Positions 6,903-62,571 of a stretch of DNA of 64,000 bases are shown piece after piece (the first letter of the stretch is position 1; each line of letters begins with the position of its first letter). The notes beneath the pieces are model-generated. The model had not been told where the DNA came from, searched no databases, and worked only from the letters and a program-made list of their open reading frames with translations. The translations under genes and the position numbers were made by a program. The DNA is from Galerina marginata (Eukaryota; Basidiomycota; Agaricomycetes; Agaricales; Galerinaceae), in assembly GCA_023014335.1 (NCBI GenBank), contig JAECYW010000009.1, forward strand, positions 2,542,001 to 2,606,000, given 5' to 3'.

Positions 6903-8179
6903 CTTGTTCAGAGGCCATTGCTGCGCATGGCAAAAACAAGTTCTTACCTTGGGGGTTTTTGTTATTATCTAAATACATGTTAAATAAGTAAATAATAGGT
7001 AGTCCGCTCAAATCTGAACCGATTGGGATGATCTTATACTCAAAAAAAGCAGAAAAATGAGGCAATTCTAACAAGCCTAAAATCAACTGGTCACGTGACC
7101 AGGAAGGCCCTGATTTTTACAAATTTTTTGATACCAAGATCATAAAAATTGGCCCAGTAATGGCTGAGATACAGAAACCATGCAGGGTCACTGTATGAGT
7201 GGGAGAATTTCCAACCATTGCGTTAGGAATGTTTTCTGCCTGCTATGCAGGCCGGAAAACAAGTTCTTTTACTACGTAAGAACTTGTAACAAGATTAATT
7301 ATTAGACTACAATAAGAAACTTGTAAAAAGATTAATTCTTACGTCACTTAGTTTTTATCGGATTGCCTTGGAACAAAATGTGTAATTATCAGAAAAATCA
7401 GGGCTAAAAGATGGTGTCACATAGGTATTGTCACATCTCTATGTGACTTACCAAATGCGGAATATTGTTGAAATACACAGTAAATAAGCTATATTGAAAG
7501 ATTTTAAAGGCATTGAAATAAAATAAAAATACTCTTAATGTTTTTTTTACCTAATAGGTGGTCTGTGCACACATATCACATGACATATCCCTGGGAATAT
7601 TTTGGTCCAAGTTGGTGCATTACCAAACCCAAGGCAATTGCACAAAGTCCTGCTGTGAGTTTGATTATGTAAGCTTCTAGAACATTATTTCTATGTTATT
7701 TGGTCATGTTTTGCAATGTTTGGTGTGCCTTTTATGGGTTATCCAGTCAGTTTAACACCAATTTTCGGATTTTCACCAAGTTGAGCTGACTGTTTGCCTG
7801 ATTTGGACACCATGACATCATTGCAAAACATATGTAAATATTTGTACATTGTTCCAGATTGGTCTGGGCAACACATTTTAGCATATCTAGCTCACTGAAA
7901 TCTGTTTTAAGTGTAAATTTACACAAATTTGCGCTTTTTGGGTTGTGTGAACAGGTCACATGACCTAATCAACCCTGGATACACATGCCACATGAAAGCC
8001 CTGATTTTTACAATTTTTTTGATACCAAAATCATTAAATTTGGCCCAGTAATGGCTGAGATACAGAAATCATGCAGGGTCACAGTATGAGTGGGAGAATT
8101 TCCAACCATTGCGTTAGAAACCATTTCTGCCTGCTATGCAGGCCGGAAAACAAGTTCTTTTACTACGTAAGAACTTGTA
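6903..8179 (+). mobile_element. HE-A element, head plus one unit, in LINE ORF1
   Basis: The head module is 6903-7288 and one 891-bp unit is 7289-8179. The left flank ends in A (6902) and the right flank starts with A (8180). Deleting the element plus one A restores the LINE frame. The 5' end is CTTGTTCAGAGG followed by the conserved block GGCCATTGCTGCGCATGGCA and, about 30 nt in, ACAAGTTCTTAC. The 3' end is a stem-loop with arms ACAAGTTCTT and AAGAACTTGT. The head carries TGGTCACGTGACCAGG, a CACGTG-centred palindrome, near 7088. No credible coding sequence. Confidence 0.92.
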
Positions 8180-8180
8180 A

Positions 8181-8677
8181 CCAGTACCACGAGTACTGCG
8201 TACTTTAACATTTGGGACTCCAAGTCGGGATCCCGTGCCCGTGCCCTTATTGGTCGCACGTTCATGCTCGGTACGAACGTCCTTGTCATCAAGGAGTCGA
8301 ACCGTCAAGCCGGTGTCCCCCAATGTCAGCGCTGCTGGCGATGGGGCCACACCATGATGGTCTGCAAGGCCTTGGCCTTGCGCTGTCCGCTTTGCTCGGG
8401 TCCGCATACGGAAGAGGAACACCGAGCCCATGCACCTTGCTGCAAGGGCTCGCCCAAGAGTAATCCGCCCATTCCCCCCACTCCGGAGGGTGAGCCGTGC
8501 CCTCATCGCCCCCACTGCTCCAACTGCAAGAAGGAGCACTCCGCCACCTCGAACAAGTGCAAGTTCTGGGGCCTCCGCTTCGATCGCCCAGGGATTGAAG
8601 CTCTCTATAAGCAGGTACGTGAACGCCCTGTCGTTCGTCGTCCTGCCGCCTCCTCTAACCCGTCGTCCCTAGCTTGA
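8181..8677 (+). pseudogene. LINE ORF1, 3' part with zinc knuckles
   Basis: This continues ORF1 after the HE insertion (STSTAYFNIWDSKSG..., then VIKESNRQAGVPQ). It contains a CCHC knuckle, CQRCWRWGHTMMVC (C-x2-C-x4-H-x4-C), followed by two further Cys/His clusters (CPLCSGPHTEEEHRAHAPC and CSNCKKEHSATSNKC). This triple arrangement is usual for ORF1 proteins of the I/R1/Tad groups and supports an RNA-binding role. The stop codon TGA at 8675-8677 overlaps the ORF2 start ATG at 8677-8679 in the sequence TGATG, a layout that permits coupled termination and re-initiation. Confidence 0.9.
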
Positions 8678-8990: not shown

Positions 8991-9209
8991 CTTGTTAAGA
9001 GGCCATTGCTCTGCATGGCAAATACGAGTTCTTTTTCTTCTTAATTCTCTTTATCAAAGCTTTTTCAATATATTATTGGGTTGTATATCAAAGATAGATT
9101 TTATCATATTTTTACCTGCATAGAGTAGCAGCACATGGCAAAAACAAGTCCTCATGTACTATGTCTCAGTAATTGATTAATAACAAAGTGAGATGTTATC
9201 TGATTGGAC

Positions 9210-9812
9210 TAGTGTTTTGAAGTCTGGTCCAGTCTGGTTTTTTCACATTTTTGGCAAGGACGGGGACTTTAACTGGTCCTAGAAATTTATAAATGTTCAG
9301 AAAACTGGACTAGACTGATGAGGACCAGTCCTCATTGGTTTTTTGCAGTCCTGGACCAGTCTTGGTTTTAACCGGTTGCCAGCTGGTCTCAACTGGTTTT
9401 TTGATACATTAACATCAAGATTTAGTGTAGATATATGAATATAATTTGTAGAGACTATATATACCTTTAAAACGAGTCCAAGAACATTAAATTCCATTGA
9501 GAATTGGCAATTATACGGAAATATTCACCATTTCCTACTCTTTTGGGAGTTTCAAAATGTTTTTTTTTATTTTTCAGTGTGAACTTTGTCTAAAATTATG
9601 ATACATAGTGCGTTTTAAAGGAAAAAATAAGGGCTACAAAACTACTGGTTTGGACAGGTCCTAGGACCGAAAACTGGTCCTCAAAGACTCGTTTTTTTCC
9701 AGTTTTTCATTCTCAAATATCAAAAGACCAGACTGCTGGTCCAGTATTTTTGCAGTCTGGTCTGGTCTTTTTGCAGGATTTTCCAGTCTTAGGACCGGAC
9801 TTCAAAACACTA
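9210..9812. mobile_element. hAT-like MITE
   Basis: The ends are inverted repeats TAGTGTTTTGAAGTCTGGTC and TAGTGTTTTGAAGTCCGGTC (complement), about 600 bp apart. The flanks GATTGGAC (9202-9209) and GATTGAGC (9813-9820) match at six of eight bases, consistent with an aged 8-bp target duplication. The interior is non-coding and dominated by short direct and inverted runs of the words GGTCC, CCAGTC and TGGTTTT. The 8-bp duplication and TIR form suggest the hAT superfamily; no transposase is present. Confidence 0.65.
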
Positions 9813-9959
9813 GATTGAGCTGATCCTGAACTCATTGGAAAGGTAATAAAAACATGCATTAGTTTAGCTTGTACACAGTACTTATGCTTGCTATGCATTT
9901 GTAAAAGTAGTCTAAAGATATAAATCTAGTAAGTTATTGCTTTATATCAAGTTTTAATC

Positions 9960-10500
9960 CACACAGAAAGCAAAAAAAAAGGATAAAAAAGCGCCAGCAA
10001 AGCACTTTTCTAGCCTATACACAATCAACTGACATGACCTGTGCTAGGAAGAAAGCTATCTACAAATAAAAGTGCCCTAAAAACATATATCTAGCTATTT
10101 ACTACTGTCTATCAAGGTTTACTTGACACAAAAAGGTAAAAAAAAAGGTAAAAAAAGCGCCAGCAAAGCACTTTTCTAGCCCACACACAGTCAACTGACA
10201 TGACCTGTGCTAGAAAAGAAAGCTATCTACAAATAAAAGTGCCCTAAAAACATATATCTAGCTATATACTACTGTCTATCAAGTTTTACTCTACACAAAA
10301 AGATAAAAAAGAGGTAAAAAAGCGCCAGCAAAGCACTCTTCCAGCCTCAGAATCTATACTAGGGACTATCTACTAATGAAAGTACATTAAAGACTCATAT
10401 TTAGCTAGTTAGTATTGAGTCTATTAAGTTTTAAACTACATAAAAAGCACAGAAAAAAAGGGGGAAAAGTGCCAGCAAAGCACCTTTCTGCTTTATACAA
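9960..10500. repeat. Tandem repeat, ~165-bp period, four copies
   Basis: A block starting GCGCCAGCAAAGCAC recurs near 9990, 10157 and 10321. A degenerate GTGCCAGCAAAGCAC follows near 10468. Copies share CAACTGACATGACCTGTG and 'aaagctatctac', and are separated by AT-rich segments ending in poly-A/G runs. Copies become shorter and more diverged to the right. The repeat word CAACTGAC is also the target duplication of the element at 11881-13043. Confidence 0.75.
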
Positions 10501-10547
10501 ACTTATAATGAATCTAAAAAGAAAGAGACAACAGTTAGTAAGCTTTG

Positions 10548-10618
10548 ACCAGCATGTCATGGTATCCCTCCAGTGAGTGGTACACTATCGACCTATCCAG
10601 GTGGACTGACATGCTGGT
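10548..10618. repeat. Short inverted repeat, 12-bp arms
   Basis: ACCAGCATGTCA (10548-10559) is the perfect complement of TGACATGCTGGT (10607-10618), with a 47-nt spacer. It could be a very small MITE or a foldback. No target duplication is evident. Confidence 0.5.
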
Positions 10619-10699
10619 AAAGAAGAAAGAAAGAAGTGATGAGCTGGCAGTTTATAACTATGTGACATATGTTACAAGTCACACAGATTTATCTAATCC

Positions 10700-10746
10700 A
10701 ATAAGATAAGATAAGATAAGATAAGACAAGATAAGACAAGATAAAA
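10700..10746. repeat. AGATA-type microsatellite
   Basis: Pure and slightly interrupted repeats of the pentamer AAGAT (AGATA) with AAGAC variants. Confidence 0.85.
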
Positions 10747-11172
10747 AGATAACCCTAGTGTATTATATACTGGATCCTTCATACTTATGAATAATTGTAT
10801 TGAATGTGGCCAAAGACAGAACTGCTTATATAAATTCCTATTTGGATATTATTTCTGTTAGCACAAGATCATGTTTAATAGGGTAGTTCTTGAAACCTTT
10901 TCAAAGCTGGTTTTATAAATAATAGTACATTTAAAAGGCCTGAATTTTACAATTTTTTTGATATTATTTTTGTCAGAATTGATCCAGCAACAATTGAAAA
11001 AGACCAAAGGCAATATTTAATGTGGCTCTGCAGAGTATCCTGTGGCTGTGCAAAATACCCATAGAAAGGCCTGAATTTTACAATTTTTTTGATATAAGTT
11101 TTGCAAGAATTGACCAAGTACTGATATTTTAAATGTAAAATTAGAGATTTTATATTTTCTGTTGTGGCTGTG

Positions 11173-11214
11173 CTAACCCTAAGAGGACCGACGCGTCGGT
11201 CCTCTTAGGGTTAG
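11173..11214. repeat. Perfect 42-bp palindrome, centre CCGACGCGTCGG
   Basis: The left half runs CTAACCCTAAGAGGACCGAC plus G and the right half is its exact complement. The outer arms include the telomere-like string CTAACCCTAA. A perfect duplex symmetry of 42 bp is far beyond chance. The same sequence recurs at 11425-11466. Confidence 0.92.
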
Positions 11215-11424
11215 AATCAAAAACACACCTAAAATTTTAAACTTCAGAAATGGATTTTAAATATAAATCTGAGGTTTAATATTGATACCAAGACAAATAT
11301 GATTTTTGTTGTGGCTGTGCTAACCCTATGAGTACAGTCCAGTTGGCTTGTTATCACTAGGAAACCTCAGATTTATATTTAAAATCCATTTCTGAAGTTT
11401 AAAATTTTAGGTGTGTTTTTGATT

Positions 11425-11466
11425 CTAACCCTAAGAGGACCGACGCGTCGGTCCTCTTAGGGTTAG
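11425..11466. repeat. Perfect 42-bp palindrome, second copy
   Basis: Identical to 11173-11214, but with its flanking module inverted: here GATT precedes and CACAGCCACAAC follows. Confidence 0.92.
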
Positions 11467-11555
11467 CACAGCCACAACAAAAAAAAAATCATATACCTCA
11501 GAATTATATTTAAAATGCATATCTGAAGTTTAAAGTTTTAGGTGTGTTTTTGATT

Positions 11556-11597
11556 CTAACCCTAAGAGGACAGACCGGTCTGTCCTCTTAGGGTTAG
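11556..11597. repeat. Perfect 42-bp palindrome with a different, still symmetric centre
   Basis: The outer arms CTAACCCTAAGAGGAC match the other two copies, but the centre is CAGACCGGTCTG rather than CCGACGCGTCGG. Symmetry is perfect although the central sequence has changed on both sides. The flanking module is in the same orientation as the copy at 11425, about 131 bp downstream. Confidence 0.92.
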
Positions 11598-11880
11598 CAC
11601 AGCCACAACACAAAAAAAAATTATTTGGCTTGTTATCAATATTAAACCTTACATTTATATTTAAAAGGCATTCCAAAGTTTAAAGTTTTTGATGTGTTTA
11701 TCCTTAGGATGTCAATTCTTCTGAGTTTGATTTCAAACCAACTATAAACAAAAGTATAACATTGAGGGATACAGAAAGTACTAGGAGAAGTTGAACAAGA
11801 TTTACAACCAGTATTATTTATTACTAGGATGCGGTGGAAGTGATCTAGAAGCATATAAATAGTCTATATATACAACTGAC

Positions 11881-13043
11881 GAGGGCTTTACCTTCCCCCA
11901 GATAAATCCAGTCCAGTCCACCTCAAGTCCAGTGGATTTTTACATACTCCAGGTGGACTCCACCTGGATTCCAGCTACTTTTTGAATGGCTGAAGTTGGC
12001 TGAAGTCTCTGCCAAATTATGTCATGGAGTCATCATGGAGTCCAGCTGGAGTCCAACCGGAGTTGAGGGTGAACAGGACATGGAATTGCACCTGGACTCA
12101 GGATTTCCACTGGACTAGTGGGTGGTTTCATGTATTATCCAACTGGAGTCCAGTTGATCCAGGTGGAGTACTTTATTTAGGATAGGCAGGATTCAGTGGA
12201 ATCTGGTGCCTAAAATATTATTTCTGATTGATTACATAAGATATGATGATGATCAATAATAACAAACAAATATAAATAATATTTTAAAAATAAAATAAAC
12301 ATAAAATCAAAAATATTTTTTTAAGACTCGCGTTTCGGCGAGTTTTTTGCACTTTTCTCGCCAAGGAATAAAGCTAGTCATGTGATTTTGATGGATGCAT
12401 AACTTTTAGAATGATCTCCATGGTTACTATTTTTGGAAAAAAGTTCCCACGGTATTTATATTTGGTGAATAAGCTTACAAATATTGGATATTTGTGATTA
12501 TTTATACATATTTGGAATCTCCTTGAAATTCCGAATCTGGTGATACCCTATTGACCCTGAATTGATTATAATATAGATACAATTTATATTATTTAATTAG
12601 AAGCAGGAGGAGTATATATAGCTATTGTTCTAGGGCCTAAGAAAGCCTCTGTGGTCTAGTGGTTAAAAGCTGTATGCTTTGGCTTATGTGACTAGAAGTC
12701 TTGGGTTCAATTCCTGCTGAATGTAAAATTTTGCAGTTTTGAAATTCTGACTAAGTCCATTCTGGTGAAGTTCACTCTGACCGGAAAATAGGTGGAGTCC
12801 ATGTGGAGTCTATATGGAATCCACCTGGACTCACTCCTGTCCAGGTCCTGTATTAAATGATAAATATGGACTTCACATGGACTTCACATGGAGTCTGGGT
12901 AGATCTGATCTGGACTTTCTATTGTCTGATCAGATTTCAATAGGACTCCATCAGGACTCCATCAGAACTCCAGTTGGACTCCACCGGAATATGATGGACT
13001 TTATGGAGTCCACCTGGACTATCTGGGGGAAGGTAAAGTACAG
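11881..13043. mobile_element. Non-autonomous TIR element with 8-bp target duplication
   Basis: The ends share CTTTACCTTCCCCCAGAT in inverted orientation (left at about 11886; right, complement, ends near 13038). The flanking 8-mers CAACTGAC at 11873-11880 and 13044-13051 are identical. The interior is a minisatellite of 'ggactccacctggattcc'-like words, mostly in inverted symmetry, with AT-rich DNA between. No transposase. The 8-bp duplication would fit hAT or KDZ; I cannot decide. Confidence 0.75.
12641..12722 (+). ncRNA. tRNA-like Pol III promoter relic (box A/box B)
   Basis: TGGTCTAGTGG fits the box A consensus and GGGTTCAATTCC fits box B, about 48 nt apart, as in a tRNA or a tRNA-derived SINE. 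The T-stem (TTGGG against CCTGC) has only partial pairing and I cannot fold a sound acceptor stem, so this is not a working tRNA. It sits inside the TIR element at 11881-13043. Confidence 0.35.
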
Positions 13044-13069
13044 CAACTGACATGAATCATGTTTAGTCA

Positions 13070-13415
13070 GTATTTAATTATATAAGCTATATATAAACCA
13101 TAGTAACCAGAACAAGAGCATCTAACCGACTGCAAAGTAAAGGAAATGATATTTAATCATGTTACTGACAAAACCTAACCTTAGTTTAGGTGTCCAGGAA
13201 CAAAAGCTAAAAATAGACCCTAGCAACGGACATCAGACAACCATTCCCATGGTCAGTAATGATTTTAACACTATTAGAAAAGTTTGTAGACTTTTAATTC
13301 AGGGTCGCTCACAAAAAATGAAGCAGTGGGAGAATTTCCAACCATCGCGTTAGGAATCATTTCCTTCTGCTATCGAGTGTAGAAAACGAGTTCTTTTACT
13401 ACGTAAGAACTCGTA
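13070..13415 (+). repeat. HE-B 3' terminal block
   Basis: About 340 bp shared with 36350-36685, including 'acaaaacctaacctta', 'ggtgtccaggaacaaaagct', 'cggacatcagacaacc' and 'attcagggtcg', then CTATCGAGTGTAG and the B-form terminal hairpin. The last ~100 bp align with the HE-A 3' end. It defines the B subfamily. Confidence 0.85.
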
Positions 13416-13416
13416 A

Positions 13417-14579: not shown

Positions 14580-15852
14580 TACAAGTTCTTACGTAGTAAA
14601 AGAACTTGTTTTCCGGCCTGCATAGCAGGCAGAAAACATTCCTAACGCAATGGTTCGAAATTCTCCCACTCATACAGTGACCCTGCATGGTTTCTGTATC
14701 TCAGCCATTACTCAGCCAATTTTGATGATTTTGGTATCAAAAAATTCGTAAAAATCAGGGCTTTCATGTGGCATGGGTATCCAGGGACGATTCGGTCATG
14801 TGATCTGTTCACACGACCCAAAAAGCGGAAATTTGTGTGAATTTACACTTGAAGCAGATTTCAGTGAGCTAGATATGCTAAAATATGTTGCCCAGACCAA
14901 TCTAAAATAATGTACAAATATTTACATATGTTTTGCAATGATGTCATGGTGTCTAAATCTGGCAAACAGCCAGCTTAACTCAGTGAAAATCGCAAAATTG
15001 GTGTTAAACTGACTGGATAACCCATAAAAGGCATACCAAACAATGCAAAACATGACCAAATAGCTTCAATATGATGTAATAGATGCTTACATAATCAAAC
15101 TCACAACAGAACTCTGTGCAATTGCCTTGGAATCAGTTGATGCACCAAGTTAGACCAAAATATTCTCAGGGATATGTCATGTGATATGTGTGCACAGACC
15201 ATCTCTTAGGTAAAAAACATTATTAGTATTTTTATTTTATTTTAATGCCTTTAAAATCTCTCAATATAGCTTATTTACTGTGTTTTCAACAATATTCCGC
15301 ATTTGGTAAGTCACATAAAGATGTGACAATACGCATGTGACACCATCTTTTAGCCCTGATTTTTCTGATAATTACACATTTTGTTTCAAGGCAATCTGAT
15401 AAAAACTAAGCGACGTATAAATTAATCTTCTTATAAGTTTCTTATTGTAGTCTAATAATTAATCTTGTTACAAGTTCTTACGTAGTAAAAGAACTTGTTT
15501 TCCGGCCTGCATAGCAGGCAGAAAACATTCCTAACGCAATGGTTCGAAATTCTCCCACTCATACAGTGACCCTGCATGGTTTCTGTATCTCAGCCATTAC
15601 TCAGCCAATTTTGATGATTTTGGTATCAAAAAATTCGTAAAAATCAGGGCCTTCCTGGTCACGTGACCAGGCCGATTTAGGCTTGTTAGATCCGCCTCAT
15701 TTTTCTGCTTTTTTTGAGTATAAGATCATCCCAATAGCTTCAGAACTAAGCGGACTATGCATTATTTACTTATTTACCCTTTATTTATAGTTGGACTTAC
15801 CTTAAAAGTAAGAACTTGTTTTTGCCATGCGCAGCAATGGCCTCTGACCAAG
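14580..15852 (-). mobile_element. HE-A element, head plus one unit, in LINE ORF2
   Basis: Reverse orientation: unit 14580-15468 (889 bp), head 15469-15852 (384 bp). The flanking T at 14579 and T at 15853 (A on the element's strand) and restored frame (PSS-FKESKSVIIPKPGK) fix the borders. It includes the palindrome CCTGGTCACGTGACCAGG near 15655. Confidence 0.93.
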
Positions 15853-15853
15853 T

Positions 15854-36349: not shown

Positions 36350-36685
36350 GGAAAGTTATATTATAAACCATAGCAACCAGAGCAAAAGCCTCTAACAGAC
36401 TGCAAAGTCAAAGAAATGATATTTGATCACGTTACTGACAAAACCTAACCTTAGATTAGGTGTCCAGGAACAAAAGCTAAAAATAGACCCTAGCAACGGA
36501 CATCAGACAACCATTCCCATGGTCAATAATAATTTTAAAACTATTAGAAAAGTTTGTAGACTTTTAATTCAGGGTCGGTCACAAAAAGTGAAGCAGTGGG
36601 AGAATTTCCATCGTTTTTGTTAGGAACCATTTCCTTCTGCTATCGAGTGTAGAAAACGAGTTCTTTTACTACGTAAGAACTCGTA
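36350..36685 (+). mobile_element. HE-B 3' terminus (5' end not found in window)
   Basis: It matches 13070-13415 over ~340 bp, including CTATCGAGTGTAG and the B hairpin arms ACGAGTTCTT / AAGAACTCGT, and ends at 36685. The right flank is the middle of an HE-A unit (…ATTCCTGAGAATATTTTGG, compare 52830). The matching left flank (…CACATGACATA) directly before a CTTG... 5' end does not occur between here and position 1. The element is therefore either very long or truncated by rearrangement. Confidence 0.75.
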
Positions 36686-37158: not shown

Positions 37159-37896
37159 TGTTACAACTTCGAATAAAGTATTCACAAGAAGTGAATATTT
37201 ATTGACAGTCGTAAAGTTCAAAGAGAATTTGTTCGTGTTTCGAATAAATCGAGTAGATTCTCAAGAACTAGCTAAAGAACACTACAGAGTACATACGAGA
37301 TTATATATTAGTTCTGCTATCGAAGCATGTAAATAGTGAGGTCTCAAAACGCGTAAGAAGTAAATGAAAAGCATAAAAGAAAACATTACAAGTTCTTACG
37401 TAGTAAAAGAACTTGTTTTCCGGCCTGCATAGCAGGCAGAAAACATTCCTAACGCAATGGTTCGAAATTCTCCCACTCATACAGTGACCCTGCATGGTTT
37501 CTGTATCTCAGCCATTACTCAGCCAATTTTGATGATTTTGGTATCAAAAAATTCGTAAAAGCCAGGGCCTTCCTGGTTTAGGCTTGTTAGAACCGCCTCA
37601 TTTTTCTGCTTTTTTTGAGTATAAGATCATCCCAATAGCTTCAGAACTGAGCGGACTATGCATTATTTACTTATTTAACCTTTATTTATAGTCGGACTTA
37701 CCTTAAAAGTAAGAACTTGTTTTTGCCATGCGCAGCAATGGCCTCTGACCAAGTATAGAAAGCGTGCTTAAACCATATGTCGATCATATATGAAAAGAGC
37801 ATGGAAAAAGAGTGTAAATACGATGTAAACGTCCTGGCTATGAAACGTGTGTCGCAGACATGAAACGCGTAAAGGAAAAATGAGGTGATCGTAACA
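37159..37896 (-). repeat. Downstream (3') LTR of the gypsy element, interrupted
   Basis: It matches 48605-48974 once the 367-bp HE head at 37387-37753 and one T are removed. Next to it (37897-37913, minus strand) lies a purine-rich AGAGAGGGGG tract, the likely plus-strand primer. Confidence 0.92.
37387..37753 (-). mobile_element. Solo HE-A head in the LTR
   Basis: A 367-bp head module without a unit, in reverse orientation. T flanks at 37386 and 37754. The intact LTR at 48830-48840 (…AAAACATATAGAAAG) shows the empty site, a clean demonstration of the insertion mode. Confidence 0.94.
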
Positions 37897-40073: not shown

Positions 40074-43000
40074 AGTGGTACCTACCATTTATATGAAATA
40101 ACTCAGGCAGCTGCCTGCACAGCGATGTAATTGGCGCCAGACTTTTTTATGAAACGAGATGGCCTGACAACTGTTTCACTTGGTCAGAGGCCATTGCTGC
40201 GCATGGCAAAAACAAGTTCTTACTTTCAAGGTGAGTCCGACTATAAATAAAGATTAAATAAGTAAATAATGCATAGTCCGCTCAAATCTGAACCAATTGG
40301 GATGATCTTATACTCAAAAAAAGCAGAAAAATAAGGCGGATCTAACAAGCCTAAAACGGCCTGGTCACATGACCAGGAAGGCCCTGATTTTTACGATTTT
40401 TTTGATACCAAGATCATAAAAATTGGCCCAGTAATGGCTGAGATACAGAAACCATGCAGGGTCACTATAGCAGTGGGAGAATTTCCATTGGTTTTGTTAG
40501 GAACCATTTCTGCCTGCTATGCAGGCCGGAAAACAAGTTCTTTTACTACGTAAGAACTTGTAACAAGATTAATTATTAGACTACAATAAGAAACTTGTAA
40601 CAAGATTAATTTATACGTCGCTTAGTTTTTATCAGATTGCCTTGAAACAAAGTGTGTAATTATCAGAAAAATCAGGGCTAAAAGATGGTGTTACATATAT
40701 ATTGTCACACCTGTATGTGACTTACCAAATGCGGAATATTGTTTGAAATACACTATATTTGGAGATTTAAAGGCATTAAAATAAAATAAAAATACAGATA
40801 ATGTTTTTTTTACCTAAGGGATGGTCTGTGCACACATATCACATGACATATCCCTGAGAATATTTTTGTCTAACTTGGTGCCTTAACTGATTCCAAGGGA
40901 TTTGCACAAAGTCCTGCTGTGAGTTTGATTATGTAAGCTTCTAAAACAATATTTTCATGTTATTTGGTCATGTTTTTCAATGTTTGGTGTGCCTTTTATG
41001 GGTTATCCAGTCAGTTTAACACCAATTTTGCGATTTTTACTGAGTTAAGCTGGCTGTTTGCCAGATTTGGACACCATGACATCATTGCAAAACATATGCA
41101 AATATTTGTACATTATTCTAGATTGGTCTGGGTAACATATTTTAGTATATCTAGCTCACTGCAATCTGTTTTAAGTGTAAATTTGCGCTTTTTGGGTCGT
41201 GTGAGCAGGTCACATGACCTAATCAACCCTGGATACACATGCCACATGAAAGCCCTGATTTTTACGATTTTTTTGATACCAAGATCATAAAAATTGGCCC
41301 AGTAATGGCTGAGATACAGAAACCATGCAGGGTCACTATAGCAGTGGGAGAATTTCCATTGGTTTTGTTAGGAACCATTTCTGCCTGCTATGCAGGCCGG
41401 AAAACAAGTTCTTTTACTACGTAAGAACTTGTAACAAGATTAATTATTAGACTACAATAAGAAACTTGTAACAAGATTAATTTATACGTCGCTTAGTTTT
41501 TATCAGATTGCCTTGAAACAAAGTGTGTAATTATCAGAAAAATCAGGGCTAAAAGATGGTGTTACATATATATTGTCACACCTGTATGTGACTTACCAAA
41601 TGCGGAATATTGTTTGAAATACACTATATTTGGAGATTTAAAGGCATTAAAATAAAATAAAAATACAGATAATGTTTTTTTTACCTAAGGGATGGTCTGT
41701 GCACACATATCACATGACATATCCCTGAGAATATTTTTGTCTAACTTGGTGCCTTAACTGATTCCAAGGGATTTGCACAAAGTCCTGCTGTGAGTTTGAT
41801 TATGTAAGCTTCTAAAACAATATTTTCATGTTATTTGGTCATGTTTTTCAATGTTTGGTGTGCCTTTTATGGGTTATCCAGTCAGTTTAACACCAATTTT
41901 GCGATTTTTACTGAGTTAAGCTGGCTGTTTGCCAGATTTGGACACCATGACATCATTGCAAAACATATGCAAATATTTGTACATTATTCTAGATTGGTCT
42001 GGGTAACATATTTTAGTATATCTAGCTCACTGCAATCTGTTTTAAGTGTAAATTTGCGCTTTTTGGGTCGTGTGAGCAGGTCACATGACCTAATCAACCC
42101 TGGATACACATGCCACATGAAAGCCCTGATTTTTACGATTTTTTTGATACCAAGATCATAAAAATTGGCCCAGTAATGGCTGAGATACAGAAACCATGCA
42201 GGGTCACTATAGCAGTGGGAGAATTTCCATTGGTTTTGTTAGGAACCATTTCTGCCTGCTATGCAGGCCGGAAAACAAGTTCTTTTACTACGTAAGAACT
42301 TGTAACAAGATTAATTATTAGACTACAATAAGAAACTTGTAACAAGATTAATTTATACGTCGCTTAGTTTTTATCAGATTGCCTTGAAACAAAGTGTGTA
42401 ATTATCAGAAAAATCAGGGCTAAAAGATGGTGTTACATATATATTGTCACACCTGTATGTGACTTACCAAATGCGGAATATTGTTTGAAATACACTATAT
42501 TTGGAGATTTAAAGGCATTAAAATAAAATAAAAATACAGATAATGTTTTTTTTACCTAAGGGATGGTCTGTGCACACATATCACATGACATATCCCTGAG
42601 AATATTTTTGTCTAACTTGGTGCCTTAACTGATTCCAAGGGATTTGCACAAAGTCCTGCTGTGAGTTTGATTATGTAAGCTTCTAAAACAATATTTTCAT
42701 GTTATTTGGTCATGTTTTTCAATGTTTGGTGTGCCTTTTATGGGTTATCCAGTCAGTTTAACACCAATTTTGCGATTTTTACTGAGTTAAGCTGGCTGTT
42801 TGCCAGATTTGGACACCATGACATCATTGCAAAACATATGCAAATATTTGTACATTATTCTAGATTGGTCTGGGTAACATATTTTAGTATATCTAGCTCA
42901 CTGCAATCTGTTTTAAGTGTAAATTTGCGCTTTTTGGGTCGTGTGAGCAGGTCACATGACCTAATCAACCCTGGATACACATGCCACATGAAAGCCCTGA

Positions 43001-44811
43001 TTTTTACGATTTTTTTGATACCAAGATCATAAAAATTGGCCCAGTAATGGCTGAGATACAGAAACCATGCAGGGTCACTATAGCAGTGGGAGAATTTCCA
43101 TTGGTTTTGTTAGGAACCATTTCTGCCTGCTATGCAGGCCGGAAAACAAGTTCTTTTACTACGTAAGAACTTGTAACAAGATTAATTATTAGACTACAAT
43201 AAGAAACTTGTAACAAGATTAATTTATACGTCGCTTAGTTTTTATCAGATTGCCTTGAAACAAAGTGTGTAATTATCAGAAAAATCAGGGCTAAAAGATG
43301 GTGTTACATATATATTGTCACACCTGTATGTGACTTACCAAATGCGGAATATTGTTTGAAATACACTATATTTGGAGATTTAAAGGCATTAAAATAAAAT
43401 AAAAATACAGATAATGTTTTTTTTACCTAAGGGATGGTCTGTGCACACATATCACATGACATATCCCTGAGAATATTTTTGTCTAACTTGGTGCCTTAAC
43501 TGATTCCAAGGGATTTGCACAAAGTCCTGCTGTGAGTTTGATTATGTAAGCTTCTAAAACAATATTTTCATGTTATTTGGTCATGTTTTTCAATGTTTGG
43601 TGTGCCTTTTATGGGTTATCCAGTCAGTTTAACACCAATTTTGCGATTTTTACTGAGTTAAGCTGGCTGTTTGCCAGATTTGGACACCATGACATCATTG
43701 CAAAACATATGCAAATATTTGTACATTATTCTAGATTGGTCTGGGTAACATATTTTAGTATATCTAGCTCACTGCAATCTGTTTTAAGTGTAAATTTGCG
43801 CTTTTTGGGTCGTGTGAGCAGGTCACATGACCTAATCAACCCTGGATACACATGCCACATGAAAGCCCTGATTTTTACGATTTTTTTGATACCAAGATCA
43901 TAAAAATTGGCCCAGTAATGGCTGAGATACAGAAACCATGCAGGGTCACTATAGCAGTGGGAGAATTTCCATTGGTTTTGTTAGGAACCATTTCTGCCTG
44001 CTATGCAGGCCGGAAAACAAGTTCTTTTACTACGTAAGAACTTGTAATTGCGATCTCATTCCTTTTCAAGGCGATTTCATAACTTCTTGTCTGTCTTATT
44101 TCATTGCCATCTCATTGCGATTTCATTAGTGTTTCATTGTCATCTCATTTCATTCCTGCCAGGAGATATCTCATAGTTGCCAGACCATTTCATTTAGATC
44201 TGTTATATTTCATTCCTTGTCTATTTCATTGCTATTTCATTCACTGTCTGTATCTATTTCATTCTGGTTTCATTGTTTCATTGTAAATTATCTATATTAT
44301 ATATAAAGGGAAATAATGATATTTTAATTGTTTATTTGGTGCGATTTGCACTGTGCTTGCATGTGGGTGGTGGTGGGCCTAATTTTAAATAAGTTTCAAT
44401 TTGAGGCCATAATTTGATAAGAACATAGGTGTGGGAAGCAGGGAAAGGCATTTTGTAAGCCATCAAAATTATTACATAATCCATCAGAATGAAATTGCTA
44501 TCTAAAAGTTATGAAATCGCTACCACAAACTTATGAAATCTCTTCTGATATTGAATGAAACAGACTAACCAGACAGGTATGAAATACTTCCAGAATGAAT
44601 GAAATGAAATAGCAATGAAACACTAATGAAATCGCAATGAGATGGCAATGAAATAAGATAGACAAGAAGTTATGAAATCGCCTTGAAAAGGAATGAGATC
44701 GCAATGAAACAGTTGTCAGGCCATCTCGTTTCATAAAAAAGTCTGGCGCCAATTACATCGCTGTGCAGGCAGCTGCCAGGGTTATTTCATATAGAGTGGT
44801 AGGTACTAGTG
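40074..44811. mobile_element. Non-autonomous KDZ-type element (MITE-like) with nested HE array
   Basis: It is inserted in the gypsy integrase with an exact 8-bp duplication (GATTTCGG, 40066-40073 and 44812-44819). The ends AGTGGTACCTACCA (left) and CACTAGTACCTACCAC (complement of right) follow the same pattern as the complete KDZ element here (AGTGGTAGCTACCA and CACCAGTAGCTACCAC). Next to them are matching inverted stretches (ATATGAAATAAC, GGCAGCTGCCTGCACAGCG, …). The inner zones repeat the word ATTTCATTGC. No coding sequence. Without the HE array (40179-44046) it is about 870 bp. Confidence 0.88.
40179..44046 (+). mobile_element. HE-A element: head plus four identical 871-bp units
   Basis: Head 40179-40562 (384 bp), units ending at 41433, 42304, 43175 and 44046. 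Total 3868 bp = 384 + 4 x 871. Flanked by A at 40178 and A at 44047. The other arm of the host MITE (near 44700) gives the empty-site sequence TGTTTCATTGCGATC. The units match those in the array at 1-4565. Confidence 0.96.
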
Positions 44812-47071: not shown

Positions 47072-47473
47072 CTTGGTCAGAGGCCATTGCTGCGCATGGC
47101 AAAAACAAGTTCTTACTTTGGGGGTGAGGCAGTACCTCGAGAAATGTTATTACATAAATACATGTTAAATAAGTAAATAATATGTAGTCCGCTCAAATCT
47201 GAACCAATTGGGATGATCTTATACTCAAAAAAAGCAGAAAAATGAGGCGGATCTAACAAGCCTAAAACGGCCTGGTCACATGACCAGGAAGGCCCTGATT
47301 TTTACGAATTTTTTGATACCAAAATCATCAAAATTGGCCCAGTAATGGCTGAGATACAGAAACCATGCAGGGTCACTATAGCAGTGGGAGAATTTCCAAC
47401 CATTGCGTTAGAAACCATTTCTGCCTGCTATGCAGGCCGGAAAACAAGTTCTTTTACTACGTAAGAACTTGTA
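47072..47473 (+). mobile_element. Solo HE-A head in gypsy gag
   Basis: 402 bp, head only, antisense to gag. Flanked by A at 47071 and A at 47474. Removal restores the gag frame. It has the long-head variant containing 'ggggtgaggcagt', like 53786-54191 and 54936-55341. Confidence 0.93.
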
Positions 47474-48603: not shown

Positions 48604-48604
48604 T

Positions 48605-49069: not shown

Positions 49070-52000
49070 TACAAGTTCTTACGTAGTAAAAGAACTTGTT
49101 TTCCGGCCTGCATAGCAGGCAGAAATGGTTTCTAACGCAATGGTTGGAAATTCTCCCACTCATATAGTGACCCTGCACCAATTTCTGTATCTCAGCCATT
49201 ACTGGGCCTATTTTTATGATCTTGGTATCAAAAAATTTGTAAAAATCAGGGCTTTCATGTGGCATGTGTATTCAGGGTCGATTAGGTCATGTGACCTGCT
49301 CACACGACCCAAAAAGCGCAAATTTGTGTAAATTTACACTTGAAATGGATTTCAGTGAGCTAGATATGCTAAAATGTGTTGCCCAGACCAATATACAATA
49401 ATGTACAAATATTTACATATGTTTTGCAATGATGTCATGGTGTCAAATCTGGCAAACAGCCAGCTCAACTTGGTGAAAATCCGAAAATTGGTGTTAAACT
49501 GACTGGATAACCCATAAAAGGCACACCAAACATTGCAAAACATGACCAAATAGCTTTAATATGATGTAATAGATGCTTACATAATCAAACTCACAGCAAG
49601 ACTTTGGGCAATTGCCTTGGAATCAGTAATGCACCAACTTGGACCAAAATATTCTCAGGGATATGTCATGTGATATGTGTGCACAGACCATCTCTTAGGT
49701 AAAAAAAACATTATCAGTTTTTTTATTTCATTTTAAGGCCTTTAAAATCTCTCAATATAGCTTATTTATTGTGTTTTCAACAATATTCCGCATTTGGTAA
49801 GTCACATCAAGATGTGACAATACACATGTAACACCATATTTTAGCCCTGATCTTTCTGATAATTACACACTTTGTTTCAAGGCAATCCGATAAAAACTAA
49901 GGGACGTAAGAATTAATCTTGTTACAAGTTTCTTATTGTAGTCTAATAATTAATCTTGTTACAAGTTCTTACGTAGTAAAAAAACTTGTTTTCCGGCCTG
50001 CATAGCAGGCAGAAATGGTTTCTAACGCAATGGTTGGAAATTCTCCCACTCATATAGTGACCCTGCACCAATTTCTGTATCTCAGCCATTACTGGGCCAA
50101 TTTTTATGATCTTGGTATCAAAAAATTTGTAAAAATCAGGGCTTTCATGTGGCATGTGTATCCAGGCCGTTTTAGGCTTGTTAGATCCGCCTCATTTTTC
50201 TGCTTTTTTTGATTATAAGATCATTACAAGTTCTTACGTAGTAAAAGAACTTGTTTTCCGGCCTGCATAGCAGGCAGAAAACATTCCTAACGCGATCGTT
50301 CGAAATTCTCCCACTGCTATAGTGACCCTGCATGGTTTCTGTATCTCAGCCATTACTGGGCCAATTTTTATGATCTTGGTATCAAAAAAATCGTAAAAAT
50401 CAGGGCTTTCATGTGGCATGTGTATCCAGGGTTGATTAGGTCATGTGACCTGTTCACACGACCCAAAAAACGCAAATTTGTGTAAATTTACACTTAAAAT
50501 GAATTTCAGTGAGCTAGATATACTAAAATATGTTACCCAGACCAATCTAAAATAATGTACAAATATTTACATATGTTTTGCAATGATGTCATGATGTCCA
50601 AATCTGGCAAACAGCCAGCTTAACTCAGTGAAAATCGCAAAATTGGTGTTAAACTAACTGGATAACCCATAAAAGGCACACCAAACATTGCAAAACATGA
50701 CCAAATAACATGGAAATAATGTTCTAGAGGCTTACATAATCAAACTCACAGCAGGACTTTGTGCAATTGCCTTGGATTTGGTAATGCACCAACTTGGACA
50801 AAAATATTCTCAGGGATATGTCATGTGATATGTGTGCACAGACCATCTCTTAGGTAAAAAAAACATTATCAGTATTTTTATTTTATTTTAATGTCTTTAA
50901 AATCTCTCAATATAGCTTATTTACTGTGTTTTCAACAATATTCCGCATTTGGGAAGTCACATGAATATGTGACAATACGCATGTGACACCATATTTTAGC
51001 CCTGATTTTTCTGATAATTACACACTTTGTTTCAAGACAATCTGATAAAAACTAAGCGACGTATAAATTAATCTTGTTACAAGTTTCTTATTGTAGTCTA
51101 ATAATTAATCTTGTTACAAGTTCTTACGTAGTAAAAGAACTTGTTTTCCGGCCTGCATAGCAGGCAGAAAACATTCCTAACGCGATCGTTCGAAATTCTC
51201 CCACTGCTATAGTGACCCTGCATGGTTTCTGTATCTCAGCCATTACTGGGCCAATTTTTATGATCTTGGTATCAAAAAAATCGTAAAAATCAGGGCTTTC
51301 ATGTGGCATGTGTATCCAGGGTTGATTAGGTCATGTGACCTGTTCACACGACCCAAAAAACGCAAATTTGTGTAAATTTACACTTAAAATGAATTTCAGT
51401 GAGCTAGATATACTAAAATATGTTACCCAGACCAATCTAAAATAATGTACAAATATTTACATATGTTTTGCAATGATGTCATGATGTCCAAATCTGGCAA
51501 ACAGCCAGCTTAACTCAGTGAAAATCGCAAAATTGGTGTTAAACTAACTGGATAACCCATAAAAGGCACACCAAACATTGCAAAACATGACCAAATAACA
51601 TGGAAATAATGTTCTAGAGGCTTACATAATCAAACTCACAGCAGGACTTTGTGCAATTGCCTTGGATTTGGTAATGCACCAACTTGGACAAAAATATTCT
51701 CAGGGATATGTCATGTGATATGTGTGCACAGACCATCTCTTAGGTAAAAAAAACATTATCAGTATTTTTATTTTATTTTAATGTCTTTAAAATCTCTCAA
51801 TATAGCTTATTTACTGTGTTTTCAACAATATTCCGCATTTGGGAAGTCACATGAATATGTGACAATACGCATGTGACACCATATTTTAGCCCTGATTTTT
51901 CTGATAATTACACACTTTGTTTCAAGACAATCTGATAAAAACTAAGCGACGTATAAATTAATCTTGTTACAAGTTTCTTATTGTAGTCTAATAATTAATC

Positions 52001-52512
52001 TTGTTACAAGTTCTTACGTAGTAAAAGAACTTGTTTTCCGGCCTGCATAGCAGGCAGAAAACATTCCTAACGCGATCGTTCGAAATTCTCCCACTGCTAT
52101 AGTGACCCTGCATGGTTTCTGTATCTCAGCCATTACTGGGCCAATTTTTATGATCTTGGTATCAAAAAAATCGTAAAAATCAGGGCCTTCCTGGTCACGT
52201 GACCAGGCCGTTTTAGGCTTGTTAGATTTGCCTCATTTTTCTGCTTTTTTTGAGTATAAGATCATCCCAATCGGTTCAGATTTGAGCGGACTATGCATTA
52301 TTTACTCATTTAACCTTTATTTATAGTCGGACTCACCTTGAAAGTAAGAACTTGTTTTTGCCATGCGCAGCAATGGCCTTTGACCAAGTCCCAATAGCTT
52401 CAGATTTGAGCAGACTATGCAATATTTACTTATTTAACCTTTATTTATAGTCGGACTCACCTTGAAAGTAACAACTTGTTTTTGCCATGCGCAGCAATGG
52501 CCTCTGACCAAG
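49070..52512 (-). mobile_element. HE-A element inserted in the terminal hairpin of an older HE-A element
   Basis: Unit 49070-49959, then the head in two parts (49960-50224 and 52390-52512) because another HE element (50225-52388) landed in it. T flanks at 49069 and 52513. The target is the loop side of the 3' stem of the older element: CAAGTTCTT | TTACTA. Confidence 0.9.
50225..52388 (-). mobile_element. HE-A element, head plus two identical units
   Basis: Units 50225-51114 and 51115-52004 (890 bp each, no differences seen), head 52005-52388. T flanks at 50224 and 52389. The empty site AAGATCATCCCAATAGC is a normal part of the head it interrupts. Confidence 0.93.
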
Positions 52513-53785: not shown

Positions 53786-54191
53786 TACAAGTTCTTACGT
53801 AGTAAAAGAACTTGTTTTCCGGCCTGCATAGCAGGCAGAAATGGTTTCTAACGCAATGGTTCGAAATTTTCCCACTGCTATAGTGACCCTGCATGGTTTC
53901 TGTATCTCAGCCATTACTGGGCCAATTTTTATGATCTTGGTATCAAAAAATTCGTAAAAATCAGGGCCTTCCTGGTCACGTGACCAGGCTGTTTTAGGCT
54001 TGTTAGATTCGCCTTATTTTTCTGCTTTTTTTGAGTATAAGATCATCCCAATCGGTTCAGATTTGAGCGGACTACATGTTATTTACGTATTTAATATGTA
54101 TTTGTTTAATAACAGTGTAAGTCCTCAGGCACTGCCTCACCCCAAAGTAAGAACTTGTTTTTGCCATGCGCAGCAATGGCCTCTGACCAAG
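53786..54191 (-). mobile_element. Solo HE-A head, left of the copia fragment
   Basis: 406-bp head, reverse orientation, with T at 53785 and T at 54192. Its 5' end abuts the copia fragment. Confidence 0.9.
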
Positions 54192-54935
54192 TATGGTATG
54201 TCTGACTGCCACCCTGTTCAAACACCAATGGCTACTGGAACTATCTTGTCCAAAACCATGGGTCCTCAAAATGCAGAAGAGGTGGAACAAATGCACAATG
54301 TTCCATACCTTAGTGAAGTTGGCTCTTTGCAGTACTTGGCTACAATGACCCGCCCAGACATTGCTTATACTGTGGCCTATTTGGCACGCTTCAACTCCAA
54401 TCCTGGCCCCAAACACTGGGCTGCTGTCAAACACCTATTCAGATATCTTAAAGGCACTCTTGAGTACAAGTTACAGTATTGTGGTGAACATGGTCAAGAA
54501 CCATTCATTACATTTACTGACTCTGCTCATGGTGATTCTGTTGATACTGGAAAGTCCACAAGTGGCTATGTTACCACTATGGCTGGTGGTTCAATTGGTT
54601 GGTCAAGCAAGCTCCAAGACATTATTGCATTGTCTACAACAGAGGCTGAATATGTAGCTGCAGTAGAGGCTGGCAAGGAGATATGTTGGATGTGCAATAT
54701 TCTTCATGAATTTGGGCACACTGTCACCCAGCCTTCTATTATGCATGTTGACAACCAGGGTGCTCTCAGTGTTTCCAAGAATCCTGAACACCATGGGCGT
54801 ATGAAGCACTTGGACTTGCGGTTTTACTGGCTCAGGGATGCCGTCGCTGTTGGACTTATTTCACCATCCTTCATCTCAACTGATGGACAAGTGGCAGATC
54901 TTCTTACCAAACCCCTTTCACCTTCCAAAGTTGCA
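54192..54935 (+). pseudogene. Ty1/copia RNase H fragment
   Basis: An open 248-codon fragment in one frame, starting YGMSDCHPVQTPMATG and ending ADLLTKPLSPSKVA. Motifs: YLSEVGSLQYLATMTRPDIAY, HWAAVKHLFRYLKGT, FITFTDSAHGDSVDTGKSTSGY (RNase H Asp), KLQDIIALSTTEAEYVAAVE (Glu), VDNQGALSVSKNPEHHGRMKH (Asp/His) and HLDLRFYWLRDAV. It is cut precisely by HE heads on both sides. Neither outer flank contains the rest of the copia element, so it is an orphan piece. No stop codon has accumulated. Confidence 0.93.
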
Positions 54936-55341
54936 CTTGGTCAGAGGCCATTGCTGCGCATGGCAAAAACAAGTTCTTACTTTGGGGTGAGGCAGTGCCT
55001 GAGGACTTACACTGTTATTAAACAAATACATATTAAATACGTAAATAACATGTAGTCCGCTCAAATCTGAACCGATTGGGATGATCTTATACTCAAAAAA
55101 AGCAGAAAAATAAGGCAAATCTAACAAGCCTAAAACAGCCTGGTCACGTGACCAGGAAGGCCCTGATTTTTACGATTTTTTTGATACCAAGATCATAAAA
55201 ATTGGCCCAGTGATGGCTGAGATACAGAAACCATGCAGGGTCACTATAGCAGTGGGAAAATTTCGAACCATTGCGTTAGAAACCATTTCCTTCTGCTATC
55301 AAGTGTAGAAAACAAGTTCTTTTACTACGTAAGAACTTGTA
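54936..55341 (+). mobile_element. Solo HE-A head, right of the copia fragment
   Basis: 406-bp head in forward orientation, A at 54935 and A at 55342. It carries the B-like segment CTATCAAGTGTAG before an A-form hairpin (ACAAGTTCTT), an intermediate between the subfamilies. With 53786-54191 it forms a pair with both 5' ends facing the copia fragment. Confidence 0.9.
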
Positions 55342-55748: not shown

Positions 55749-57021
55749 TACAAGTTCTTACGTAGTAAAAGAACTTGTTTTCCGGCCTGCATAGCAGGCA
55801 GAAAACATTCCTAACGCAATGGTTGGAAATTCTCCCACTGCTATAGTGACCCTGCATGGTTTCTGTATCTCAGCCATTACTGGGCCAATTTTGATGATCT
55901 TGGTATCAAAAAAATCGTAAAAATCAGGGCTTTCATGTGGCATGTGTATCCAGGGTTGATTAGGTCATGTGACCTGCTCACACGACCCAAAAAGCGCAAA
56001 TTTGTGTGAATTTACACTTAAAACAGATTTCAGTGAGCTAAATATGCTAAAATGTGTTGCCCAGACCAATCTAGAATAATGTACAAATATTTACATATGT
56101 TTTGCAATGATGTCATGGTGTCCAAATCAGGCAAACAGTCAGCTCAACTTGGTGAAAATCCGAAAATTGGTGTTAAACTAACTGGATAACCCATAAAAGG
56201 CACACCAAACATTGCAAAACATGACCAAATAACATGGAAATAATGTTCTAGAAGCTTACATAATCAAACTCACAGCAGGACTTTGTGCAATTGCCTTGGA
56301 TTTGGTAATGCACCAACTTGGACCAAAATATTCTCAGGGATATGTCATGTGATATGTGTGCACAGACCATCTCTTAGATAAAAAAAACATTATCAGTATT
56401 TTTATTTTATTTTAATGTCTTTAAAATCTCTCAATATAGCTTATTTACTGTGTTTTCAACAATATTCCGCATTTGGTAAGTCACATAAAGATGTGACAAT
56501 ACGCATGTGACACCATCTTTTAGCCCTGATTTTTCTGATAATTACACACTTTATTTCAAGGAAATCTGATAAAAACTAAGTGACGTATGAACTAATCTTA
56601 TTACAAGTTCTTATTGTAGTCAATTAATTAATCTTGTTACAAGTTCTTACGTAGTAAAAGAACTTGTTTTCCGGCCTGCATAGCAGGCAGAAAACATTCC
56701 TAACGCAATGGTTGGAAATTCTCCCACTGCTATAGTGACCCTGCATGGTTTCTGTATCTCAGCCATTACTGGGCCAATTTTGATGATCTTGGTATCAAAA
56801 AATTCGTAAAAATCAGGGCCTTCCTGGTCACGTGACCAGGCCATTTTAGGCTTGTTAGATCCGCCTCATTTTTCTGCTTTTTTTGAGTATAAGATCATCC
56901 TAATAGCTTCAGATTTGAGCGGACTATGTAATATTTACTTATTTAACCTTTATTTATAGTCGGACTCACCTAGAAAGTAAGAACTTGTTTTTGCCATGCG
57001 CAGCAATGGCCTCTGACCAAG
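55749..57021 (-). mobile_element. HE-A element, head plus one unit, in the LINE 3' UTR
   Basis: Unit 55749-56637 (889 bp), head 56638-57021 (384 bp). T flanks at 55748 and 57022. The surrounding 3' UTR sequence aligns across the site with 28930-28960 of the intact LINE. Confidence 0.92.
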
Positions 57022-57219
57022 TTCGAGATATGGGCCGCAGAGTAACCACCGGTCGTAGCGAATGCAACCGGGTACGAAACACGAAGAACGCGCGAAACTA
57101 CACCACCCCGTCCTTGGCCTGTCAACCTCGTCTGAAGGAGGGATTGGACCTCCCCCAACCGACGCAACCCGGAAGAAGGTATCAAGGCCTCTCTGAGCGA
57201 CGAGCCCGCGCGGAACGCC

Positions 57220-61000: not shown

Positions 61001-61298
61001 TCAACCTCATTTCGTGTCAAATCCAAGGTAATGTTACTAGATTATCGCGCAACCATGAGAGGTGCTCAGAAATGTTTGCATTGACTTCTAATGACTATCT
61101 GCTGTGACATAGAACCTTTACTTCTGTTTAGAATACATTTAATTGATTCCAATGAGCAAAAAAGTCGAACGCGAACATCCGTTGATCACCACGCGCGGCT
61201 GTTCGATTTCGATACACCTGCATTGTGGTTCAATATTCATCAGCGGAAAGGTTTAATAAGCTTAACGTTATGTTTAATAAAATATCCCGAGCATTAAA
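58047..61298. other. Unassigned region, GC-rich centre
   Basis: 58047-59270 is mixed: a small palindrome CCCACCTATGGTAGGTGGG (58053-58071), two imperfect ~75-bp direct repeats sharing TCGTCGTCAGGCACT (near 58492 and 58560) and a (TA)n run at about 59121. 59270-60640 is GC-rich, with trinucleotide-like runs of GGTGCT/GCTGCT. It contains a duplicated 'ctggtgctggtactgccaaa' (59726-59810). Several overlapping open frames exist on both strands, but none shows a recognisable domain. 60640-61298 is AT-rich and featureless. I cannot support a gene. Confidence 0.4.
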
Positions 61299-62571
61299 CT
61301 TGGTCAGAGGCCATTGCTGCACATGGCAAAAACAAGTTCTTACTTTCAAGGTGAGTGCGACTATAAATAAAGGTTAAATAAGTAAATAATGCATAGTCCG
61401 CTCAAATCTGAAGCTATTGGGATGATCTTATACTTGAAAAAAGCAGAAAAATGAGGCGGTTTTAACAAGCCTAAAACGGCCTGGTCACGTGACCAGGAAG
61501 GCCCTGATTTTTACGAATTTTTTGATACCAAGATCATAAAAATTGGCCCAGTAATGGCTGAGATACAGAAACCATGCAGGGTCACTATAGCAGTGGGAGA
61601 ATTTCCAACCATTGCGTTAGGAATGTTTTCTGCCTGCTATGCAGGCCGGAAAACAAGTTCTTTTACTACGTAAGAACTTGTAACAAGATTAATTATTAGA
61701 CTACAATAAGAAACTTATAAGAAGATTAATTTATACGTTGCTTAGTTTTTATCAGATTGCCTTGAAACAAAATGTGTAATTATCAGAAAAATCAGGGCTA
61801 AAAGATGGTGTCACATGCGTATTGTCACATCTTGATGTGACATACCAAATGCGGAATATTGTTGAAAACACAGTAAATAAGCTATATTGAGAGATTTTAA
61901 AGGCATTAAAATGAAATAAAAATACTGATAATGTTTTTTTTACCTAAGAGATGGTCTGTGCACACATATCACATGACATATCCCTGAGAATATTTTGGTC
62001 CAAGTTGGTGCATTACCAAATCCAAGGCAATTGCACAAAGTCCTGCTGTGAGTTTGATTATGTAAGCTTCTAGAACATTATTTCCATGTTATTTGGTTAT
62101 GTTTTGCAATGTTTGGTGTGCCTTTTATGGGTTATCCAGTCAGTTTAACACCAATTTTCGGATTTTCACCAAGTTGAGCTGACTGTTTGCCAGATTTGAC
62201 ACCATGACATCATTGCAAAACATATGTAAATATTTGTACATTATTTTAGATTGGTCTGGGCCACACATTTTAGCCTATCTAGCTCACTGAAATCCATTTC
62301 AAGTGTAAATTTACACAAATTTGCGCTTTTTGGGTTGTGTGAGCAGGTCACATGACCAAATTGACCCTGGATACACATGCCACATGAAAGCCCTGATTTT
62401 TACGAATTTTTTGATACCAAGATCATAAAAATTGGCCCAGTAATGGCTGAGATACAGAAACCATGCAGGGTCACTATATGAGTGGGAGAATTTCGAACCA
62501 TTGCGTTAGGAATGTTTTCTGCCTGCTATGCAGGCCGGAAAACAAGTTCTTTTACTACGTAAGAACTTGTA
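61299..62571 (+). mobile_element. HE-A element, head plus one unit
   Basis: Head 61299-61682, unit 61683-62571. A flanks at 61298 and 62572. It includes CCTGGTCACGTGACCAGG near 61481. The target lies in unassigned AT-rich DNA. Confidence 0.93.

Follow-up and report, generated by a model that had tools for sequence, protein, structure and literature searches.

The window, 64,000 bp of the Galerina marginata genome (C43:2542001-2606000; 69.3 Mb in 43 contigs), holds copies of a family of hairpin-ended (HE) elements, ends and one copy of related families, and two sites that match the joined flanks of much larger elements located elsewhere (Table 1). The HE copies consist either of a single short unit, S, or of one or more longer units, U, together with S. 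No frame of more than 100 aa is present in the subfamily-2 copy of Table 1, and one window frame that was examined had no match in Pfam. The stretch 52475-53412 contains rearranged HE pieces of both orientations, which surround a 3' end at 52512.

Table 1. Elements, element ends and empty sites in the window, with the support for each.
Feature	Position	Strand	Support
End of tandem U array with 871-bp period, one 5' hairpin end per unit; extends past window start	1..4565	-	
3' end of TATGAG-type Helitron2 relative, GCCATGCGCAGCAATGGC...CAAG followed by T	5280..5320	+	
HE copy, one U (7289-8179) and S (6903-7288)	6903..8179	-	ends; gap-free empty site
Subfamily-2 copy (TACGAG...AACAAG), 4425 bp	8991..13415	-	ends; gap-free empty site
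HE copy, U and S	14580..15852	+	ends; no empty-site paralog
HE copy, U and S	33549..34795	+	ends; gap-free empty site
Subfamily-2 5' end	36656..36685	-	end search; matching 3' end not found in window
HE copy, single S	37387..37753	+	ends; gap-free empty site
HE copy, four identical 871-bp U and S (40179-40562)	40179..44046	-	ends; gap-free empty site
HE copy, single S	47072..47473	-	ends; no empty-site paralog
HE copy, two U and S, within another HE copy	50225..52388	+	ends; gap-free empty site
HE copy, single S	53786..54191	+	ends; no empty-site paralog
Empty site for C12 copy of ~33-kb RepHel element	54557..54691	-	135/135 bp, 96.3%, no gap
HE copy, single S	54936..55341	-	ends; no empty-site paralog
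HE copy, U and S	55749..57021	+	ends; diverged gap-free paralog without the T
Empty site for C23 copy of 32.6-kb RepHel element	57083..57210	+	128/128 bp, 96.1%, no gap
HE copy, U and S	61299..62571	-	ends; no empty-site paralog

The initial annotation had described shared termini with a single A on both sides. This description holds when read on the opposite strand: a T directly precedes all 32 5'-hairpin ends located in the window by a search for both ends, and directly follows all 14 3' ends with the GCCAT hairpin (13 of HE and one, at 5320, of a related family). That the ends are real is supported by the motif GAACTTGTA: allowing up to one mismatch, the window contains it 101 times, compared with 17.2 occurrences expected from shuffled sequences. 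As had also been claimed for the position past the target, the base beyond the 3' T is variable (t 5, c 4, a 3, g 2 at the 14 window 3' ends). Junctions within tandem arrays, where TTAATCTTGT comes before the 5' end, account for 16 of the 32, so that these 16 are not independent insertions.

At the 5' end the host T is followed by TACAAGTTCTTACGTAGTAAAAGAACTTGT, which forms a 10-bp hairpin and contains the 5' copy of an asymmetric inverted repeat; the element starts with TACAAGTTC. The 3' end is composed of GTAAGAACTTGT (the 3' repeat), TTTT, GCCATGCGCAGCAATGGC (the GCCAT/ATGGC hairpin) and CTCTGACCAAG, after which the host resumes with a T. The two copies of the 12-bp repeat, ACAAGTTCTTAC and GTAAGAACTTGT, are mutual reverse complements, an asymmetric inverted repeat that the earlier description lacked. 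The strand of that description has to be reversed, and the 10-bp hairpin is the 5' end. This 5' hairpin folds better than shuffled sequences in HE (z -4.5), in subfamily 2 (z -3.1) and in the TATGAG family (z -5.6). The predicted 3' stem GCCATG/CAATGGC folds no better than shuffled sequences in the three families (z -0.6, -0.6 and -1.1), and hence the case for a 3' hairpin is its conservation across all three.

Empty sites were sought for 12 insertions by placing a single T between the two flanks of each and aligning the result to the window and to selected genome loci. A paralog spanning the joined site was found for seven insertions, and in six of the 12 (6903, 8991, 33549, 37387, 40179 and 50225) the junction is gap-free and contains exactly one T/A. 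The paralog of the insertion at 55749 is 74% identical and gap-free as well, but has a different base at the T position. No spanning paralog was present in the window and the compared loci for the remaining five (14580, 47072, 53786, 54936 and 61299). The single T of the gap-free empty sites means that one T turns into two, one at each element end; whether 1 nt of the target is duplicated or the element brings the additional T itself, the outcome is the same.

The surplus of 5' ends in the window comes from arrays of the form U(n)S. Each U unit (871-891 bp) begins with a 5' hairpin end, S (367-406 bp) bears the sole true 3' end of the array, and U and S have their first 189-198 bp in common. 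Much of what had been taken for HE insertions into other HE copies is tandem array of this kind; the copy at 50225..52388 is inserted in another HE copy. The U tail was considered as an independent 3' end and rejected, because another 5' end adjoins all 18 tail motifs in the window and, at 234 of the 243 exact genome sites among the matches listed, the tail TAATAATTAATCTTGT is directly followed by TACAAGTTC. The longest U array among the matches listed, at C5:93376-102191, contains 11 tail motifs in exact 880-bp steps.

By analogy with the composites proposed for FoHeli elements of Fusarium oxysporum, the simplest course for the U units would be a composite origin followed by multiplication. 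A second 5' end would have been joined upstream of S, and the resulting composite would have had a single 3' end but two 5' ends. Multiplication and homogenisation of U could then have proceeded across the ~190 bp common to U and S, through either recombination or the transposition enzyme. For the arrays only, we consider it fairly probable that U multiplies by unequal exchange or gene conversion across the ~190-bp overlap and not by a transposition enzyme. The overlap itself speaks for this, as do the identity of U units within arrays (17 of 17 pairs), compared with a mean of 93.1% over 103 pairs between arrays, and the closeness of S to the U of its own array (98.3% versus 94.3% for others; only 1 of 5040 relabellings was as good). 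On the other side, the two arrays at 1-4565 and 40563-44046 contribute 20 of the 103 pairs, all 100% identical, which fits movement of the whole composite, and in two of seven arrays the best match of S is the U of another array.

Elsewhere in the genome, the Helitron_like_N domain (PF14214) was found at 120 places. One type comprises 18 strong matches (L009-L026) in frames of up to 1,685 aa, and the second type is a larger group with frames of up to 2,940 aa. Second-type copies at C40, C21 and C10, which align with one another, start with T followed by TATGAGTCCTTTG and finish with GCCATGCGAAGCAATGGCCCACT...CAAG followed by T. Their RepHel-encoding elements thus have an HE-like end plan with a homologous 3' hairpin; a search of the C40 element for the HE ends themselves gave none. 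On C21 (~45.6-46.0 kb), a 402-bp HE copy splits the Helitron_like_N domain match of another Helitron (L028:1109-1510).

The RepHel copy at C23:2309293 terminates in AAAGAACTCGTTTTTGCCATGCGAAGCAATGGCCTCTAAACAAG followed by T, which is the end type of subfamily 2. No 5' end lies within 12.7 kb upstream of its RepHel frame; ~24 kb upstream, a 5' end TACGAG... is located on the same strand at C23:2282300, and the element measures 32,616 bp between TACGAG... and ...AACAAG, with the 10-bp inverted repeat ACGAGTTCTT / AAGAACTCGT. Over its first 2.7 kb, the blocks 1-267, ~1021-1341 and ~1654-2713 are matched by four other copies (two on C6, one each on C12 and C42). At sampled points the C6 and C12 copies match further inside and in the correct order (8.2-10 kb and 20-23 kb), the 15.6-kb point being matched in C6 only (237 bp, 69%). 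The final 190-307 bp of the C23 element are 96-98% identical in four copies, and interior identity among the ~33-kb copies is 67-92%. For the 5' ends on C39 and C14, the match to the C23 element is limited to its first 240 bp, followed by a region 8.7 kb inside it. Joining the flanks of four ~33-kb copies gave gap-free empty sites in the window for two of them (C23 and C12; Table 1). For the minus-strand copy on C6 the match fell in a local repeat and was ambiguous, and the plus-strand copy on C6 had no matching empty site. From the ends and the empty sites we conclude that two ends ~33 kb apart bound one element.

The RepHel frame of the 32.6-kb element contains DUF6570, Helitron_like_N and PIF1 helicase domains, and the sequences HLH and YVTDY, which we take to be the HUH-type and the two-tyrosine motif, respectively. 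A PDB comparison matched the helicase part to Pif1 chains and to the Helraiser Helitron transposase (7lcc), the latter match being confined to this part, and gave nothing for the Rep part. No endonuclease domain (E <=0.01) was found in RepHel pieces of 2542 and 2333 aa, each of which is incomplete. NCBIfam gave nothing but helicase matches below the cut-offs, and Pfam had no match in eight of ten frames of the 32.6-kb element, some of which apparently contain introns. Another frame of the element (L049:3331-4164) matches a SET domain with 23.6 bits, barely over the cut-off of 22.4. RepHel is matched by 604 proteins (E <=1e-10), with a top identity of 68% among the best 120 of the 604.

Of the 27 exact 3' ends of the C23 type, 23 have a same-strand Helitron_like_N match upstream, at a distance of 5.0-11.5 kb, nine of these at one fixed distance. 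The controls up to 11.5 kb gave 2 of 27 (same strand, downstream), 0 of 27 (opposite strand, upstream) and 1 of 27 (opposite strand, downstream). For the other four 3' ends the nearest RepHel match lies beyond 11.5 kb, at 21.6, 35 or 79 kb, or there is none. Compared with the 32.6-kb element, HE is 78-86% identical over the first 91-94 bp and 91% identical over the last 43 bp. The initial annotation had suggested looking for a longer, Rep/HUH-encoding copy with termini of this kind; one is present in a sister subfamily, but no enzyme-encoding copy with the exact HE ends TACAAG...CCAAG was found.

The subfamily-2 5' hairpin is ACGAGTTCTT...AAGAACTCGT, with AAGAACTCGT recurring as the 3' repeat in the RepHel element. 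One base change is present in both hairpin arms as well as in the distant 3' repeat. The hairpin was found at 83 genome places in a tally that takes in 0-1 mismatch only, the main family falling in the 2-3 mismatch class. Of these places 64 are exact, seven have a change at that position in a single arm (four TACAAG...CTCGT and three TACGAG...CTTGT) and 12 have the mismatch at other positions.

The 5' hairpin occurs 519+602 times in the genome (<=3 mismatches) and the 3' end 289+309 times (<=2 mismatches), with no occurrence of the reversed-pattern controls in either case. The resulting excess of 5' ends, about twofold, is approximate, since the patterns searched for the two ends were of unequal length and mismatch tolerance. 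Subfamily 2 was located at 110 positions (27 exact 3' ends and 83 5' ends) on 15 of the 43 contigs. Its spans total 3.4 Mb (5.0% of the genome), mostly as one block per contig; on C39 the positions fall in two separate places. Among the matches listed, the main family lies in the subfamily-2 blocks, on C5 and in a second small block on C4. In Agaricus bisporus, one repeat cluster of 110-280 kb per chromosome is described as being regarded as the centromere (PMC7473861). The blocks crowded with HE and with RepHel elements that have its type of 3' end could be centromeres. It is conceivable, though improbable, that RepHel, by cutting at successive 5' ends, releases unit-length U circles that integrate beside existing 5' ends, by which a Helitron2 would build and refresh satellite arrays within the centromeres of this fungus.

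The ends, the flanks, the empty sites and the RepHel-encoding relatives with homologous ends make it highly probable that HE is a non-autonomous, HINE-like rolling-circle family of the Helitron2 type. The rolling-circle or single-strand mode that the initial annotation proposed fits this assignment. Its view that the elements match no family known to it does not hold: read on the opposite strand, the ends follow the plan described for Helitron2 and Helentron elements (PMC3627910, PMC4067079, PMC5148889). Among Helitrons, the earlier comparison had taken in only the canonical ones (TC...CTRR, A and T at the insertion site).

Presumably, HE is mobilised by a RepHel of the kind encoded by the ~33-kb element (HUH, two tyrosines, PIF1-like helicase) and transposes through a single-strand intermediate. 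RepHel would cut next to the 5' hairpin, at the adjoining T, and peel off one HE strand, stopping near the 3' hairpin, and the peeled strand would be joined at a new host T. It is very unlikely that HE instead depends on some other single-strand or recombinase mechanism, unrelated to RepHel (IS200/605-like or Crypton-like), and resembles Helitron2 in its ends only. That no autonomous copy with exact HE ends was found would suit such a mechanism, but the likeness to the RepHel ends goes beyond shape to homology in sequence (the 91% and 78-86% given above), and the RepHel elements use the identical single-T target.

Canonical Helitron1 elements start with TC, end with CTRR and insert between A and T. 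That HE is a Helitron1 family with drifted ends is likewise very unlikely: the genome does hold the 18 strong matches of the shorter Helitron_like_N type, but HE has none of these marks (5' TACAAG/TACGAG, 3' CAAG, a single T as target), carries a hairpin at the 5' end and a predicted one at the 3' end, and the RepHel linked to HE-homologous ends is of the other, longer type.

With HE assigned to the Helitron2 type, what had looked like an unknown transposon offers a tractable Helitron2 system, in which related families within one genome reveal which end bases co-vary and copies with readable empty sites pin the target to one T. The ~33-kb element is an example of how large Helitron2-type elements get. 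Arrays and block crowding tie rolling-circle transposons to satellite, possibly centromere, DNA. Unusual in HE are the 871-891-bp units that each have a 5' end and share one common 3' end, the crowding in blocks and the 33-kb size of a relative.

None of the titles listed in a literature search names the HE family. Helitron2 elements are described as having asymmetric terminal inverted repeats of 8-15 bp, with the 5' repeat in a 5' hairpin, the 3' repeat ~20-30 bp from the 3' end and directly upstream of a 3' hairpin, a 5' T, and RepHel (Bao & Jurka 2013, PMC3627910). HE agrees with this description in the asymmetric repeats, the position of both repeats relative to the 5' hairpin and the predicted 3' hairpin, and the 5' T, and the 32.6-kb sister element agrees in encoding RepHel (HUH/Y2 Rep and PIF1-like helicase). 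HE differs from the elements so described in its target of one T, its tandem U arrays and its lack of an enzyme, and the RepHel element differs in its size of ~33 kb.

HINE/DINE-1 elements are reported as short and non-autonomous, with subterminal repeats, a 3' palindrome and a flanking T without further change to the target (Thomas et al. 2014, PMC4067079). These features of the Helentron/HINE/DINE-1 group, as reported there, recur in the short HE copies, the 3' palindrome as a predicted stem. A SET protein is recorded for a proto-Helentron in the same source (PMC4067079), and a frame of the C23 32.6-kb element has the SET match barely over the cut-off. HINE elements are given at least two T on each side (PMC4067079), whereas the 3' ends in the window, HE and related, have one T (14 of 14) followed by a variable base. 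The endonuclease domain attributed to Helentrons has no counterpart in the two RepHel pieces of 2542 and 2333 aa, both incomplete.

Among fungal elements, FoHeli1-5 from Fusarium oxysporum are described as Helitron2-like with asymmetric repeats, FoHeli1/2 having hairpins at both ends, and composites with several 5' ends have been proposed for them (Chellapan et al. 2016, PMC5148889). HE shares the asymmetric repeats with FoHeli1-5 and, with its 5' hairpin and predicted 3' hairpin, resembles FoHeli1/2; by the same account FoHeli1-5 differ in end sequences, target (TNAT/A), length (5-11 kb) and the rarity of tandem copies (PMC5148889). HELPO1/HELPO2 of Pleurotus ostreatus share with the present elements the fungal rolling-circle type and the domains PF14214 and PF05970, but are reported to have a target between A and T, canonical-type ends and a RepHel of ~1400 aa (PMC4289320). 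A Helitron2 with a TET/JBP gene is described from Agaricus bisporus (PMC12730594), so that Helitron2 is already known from mushrooms.
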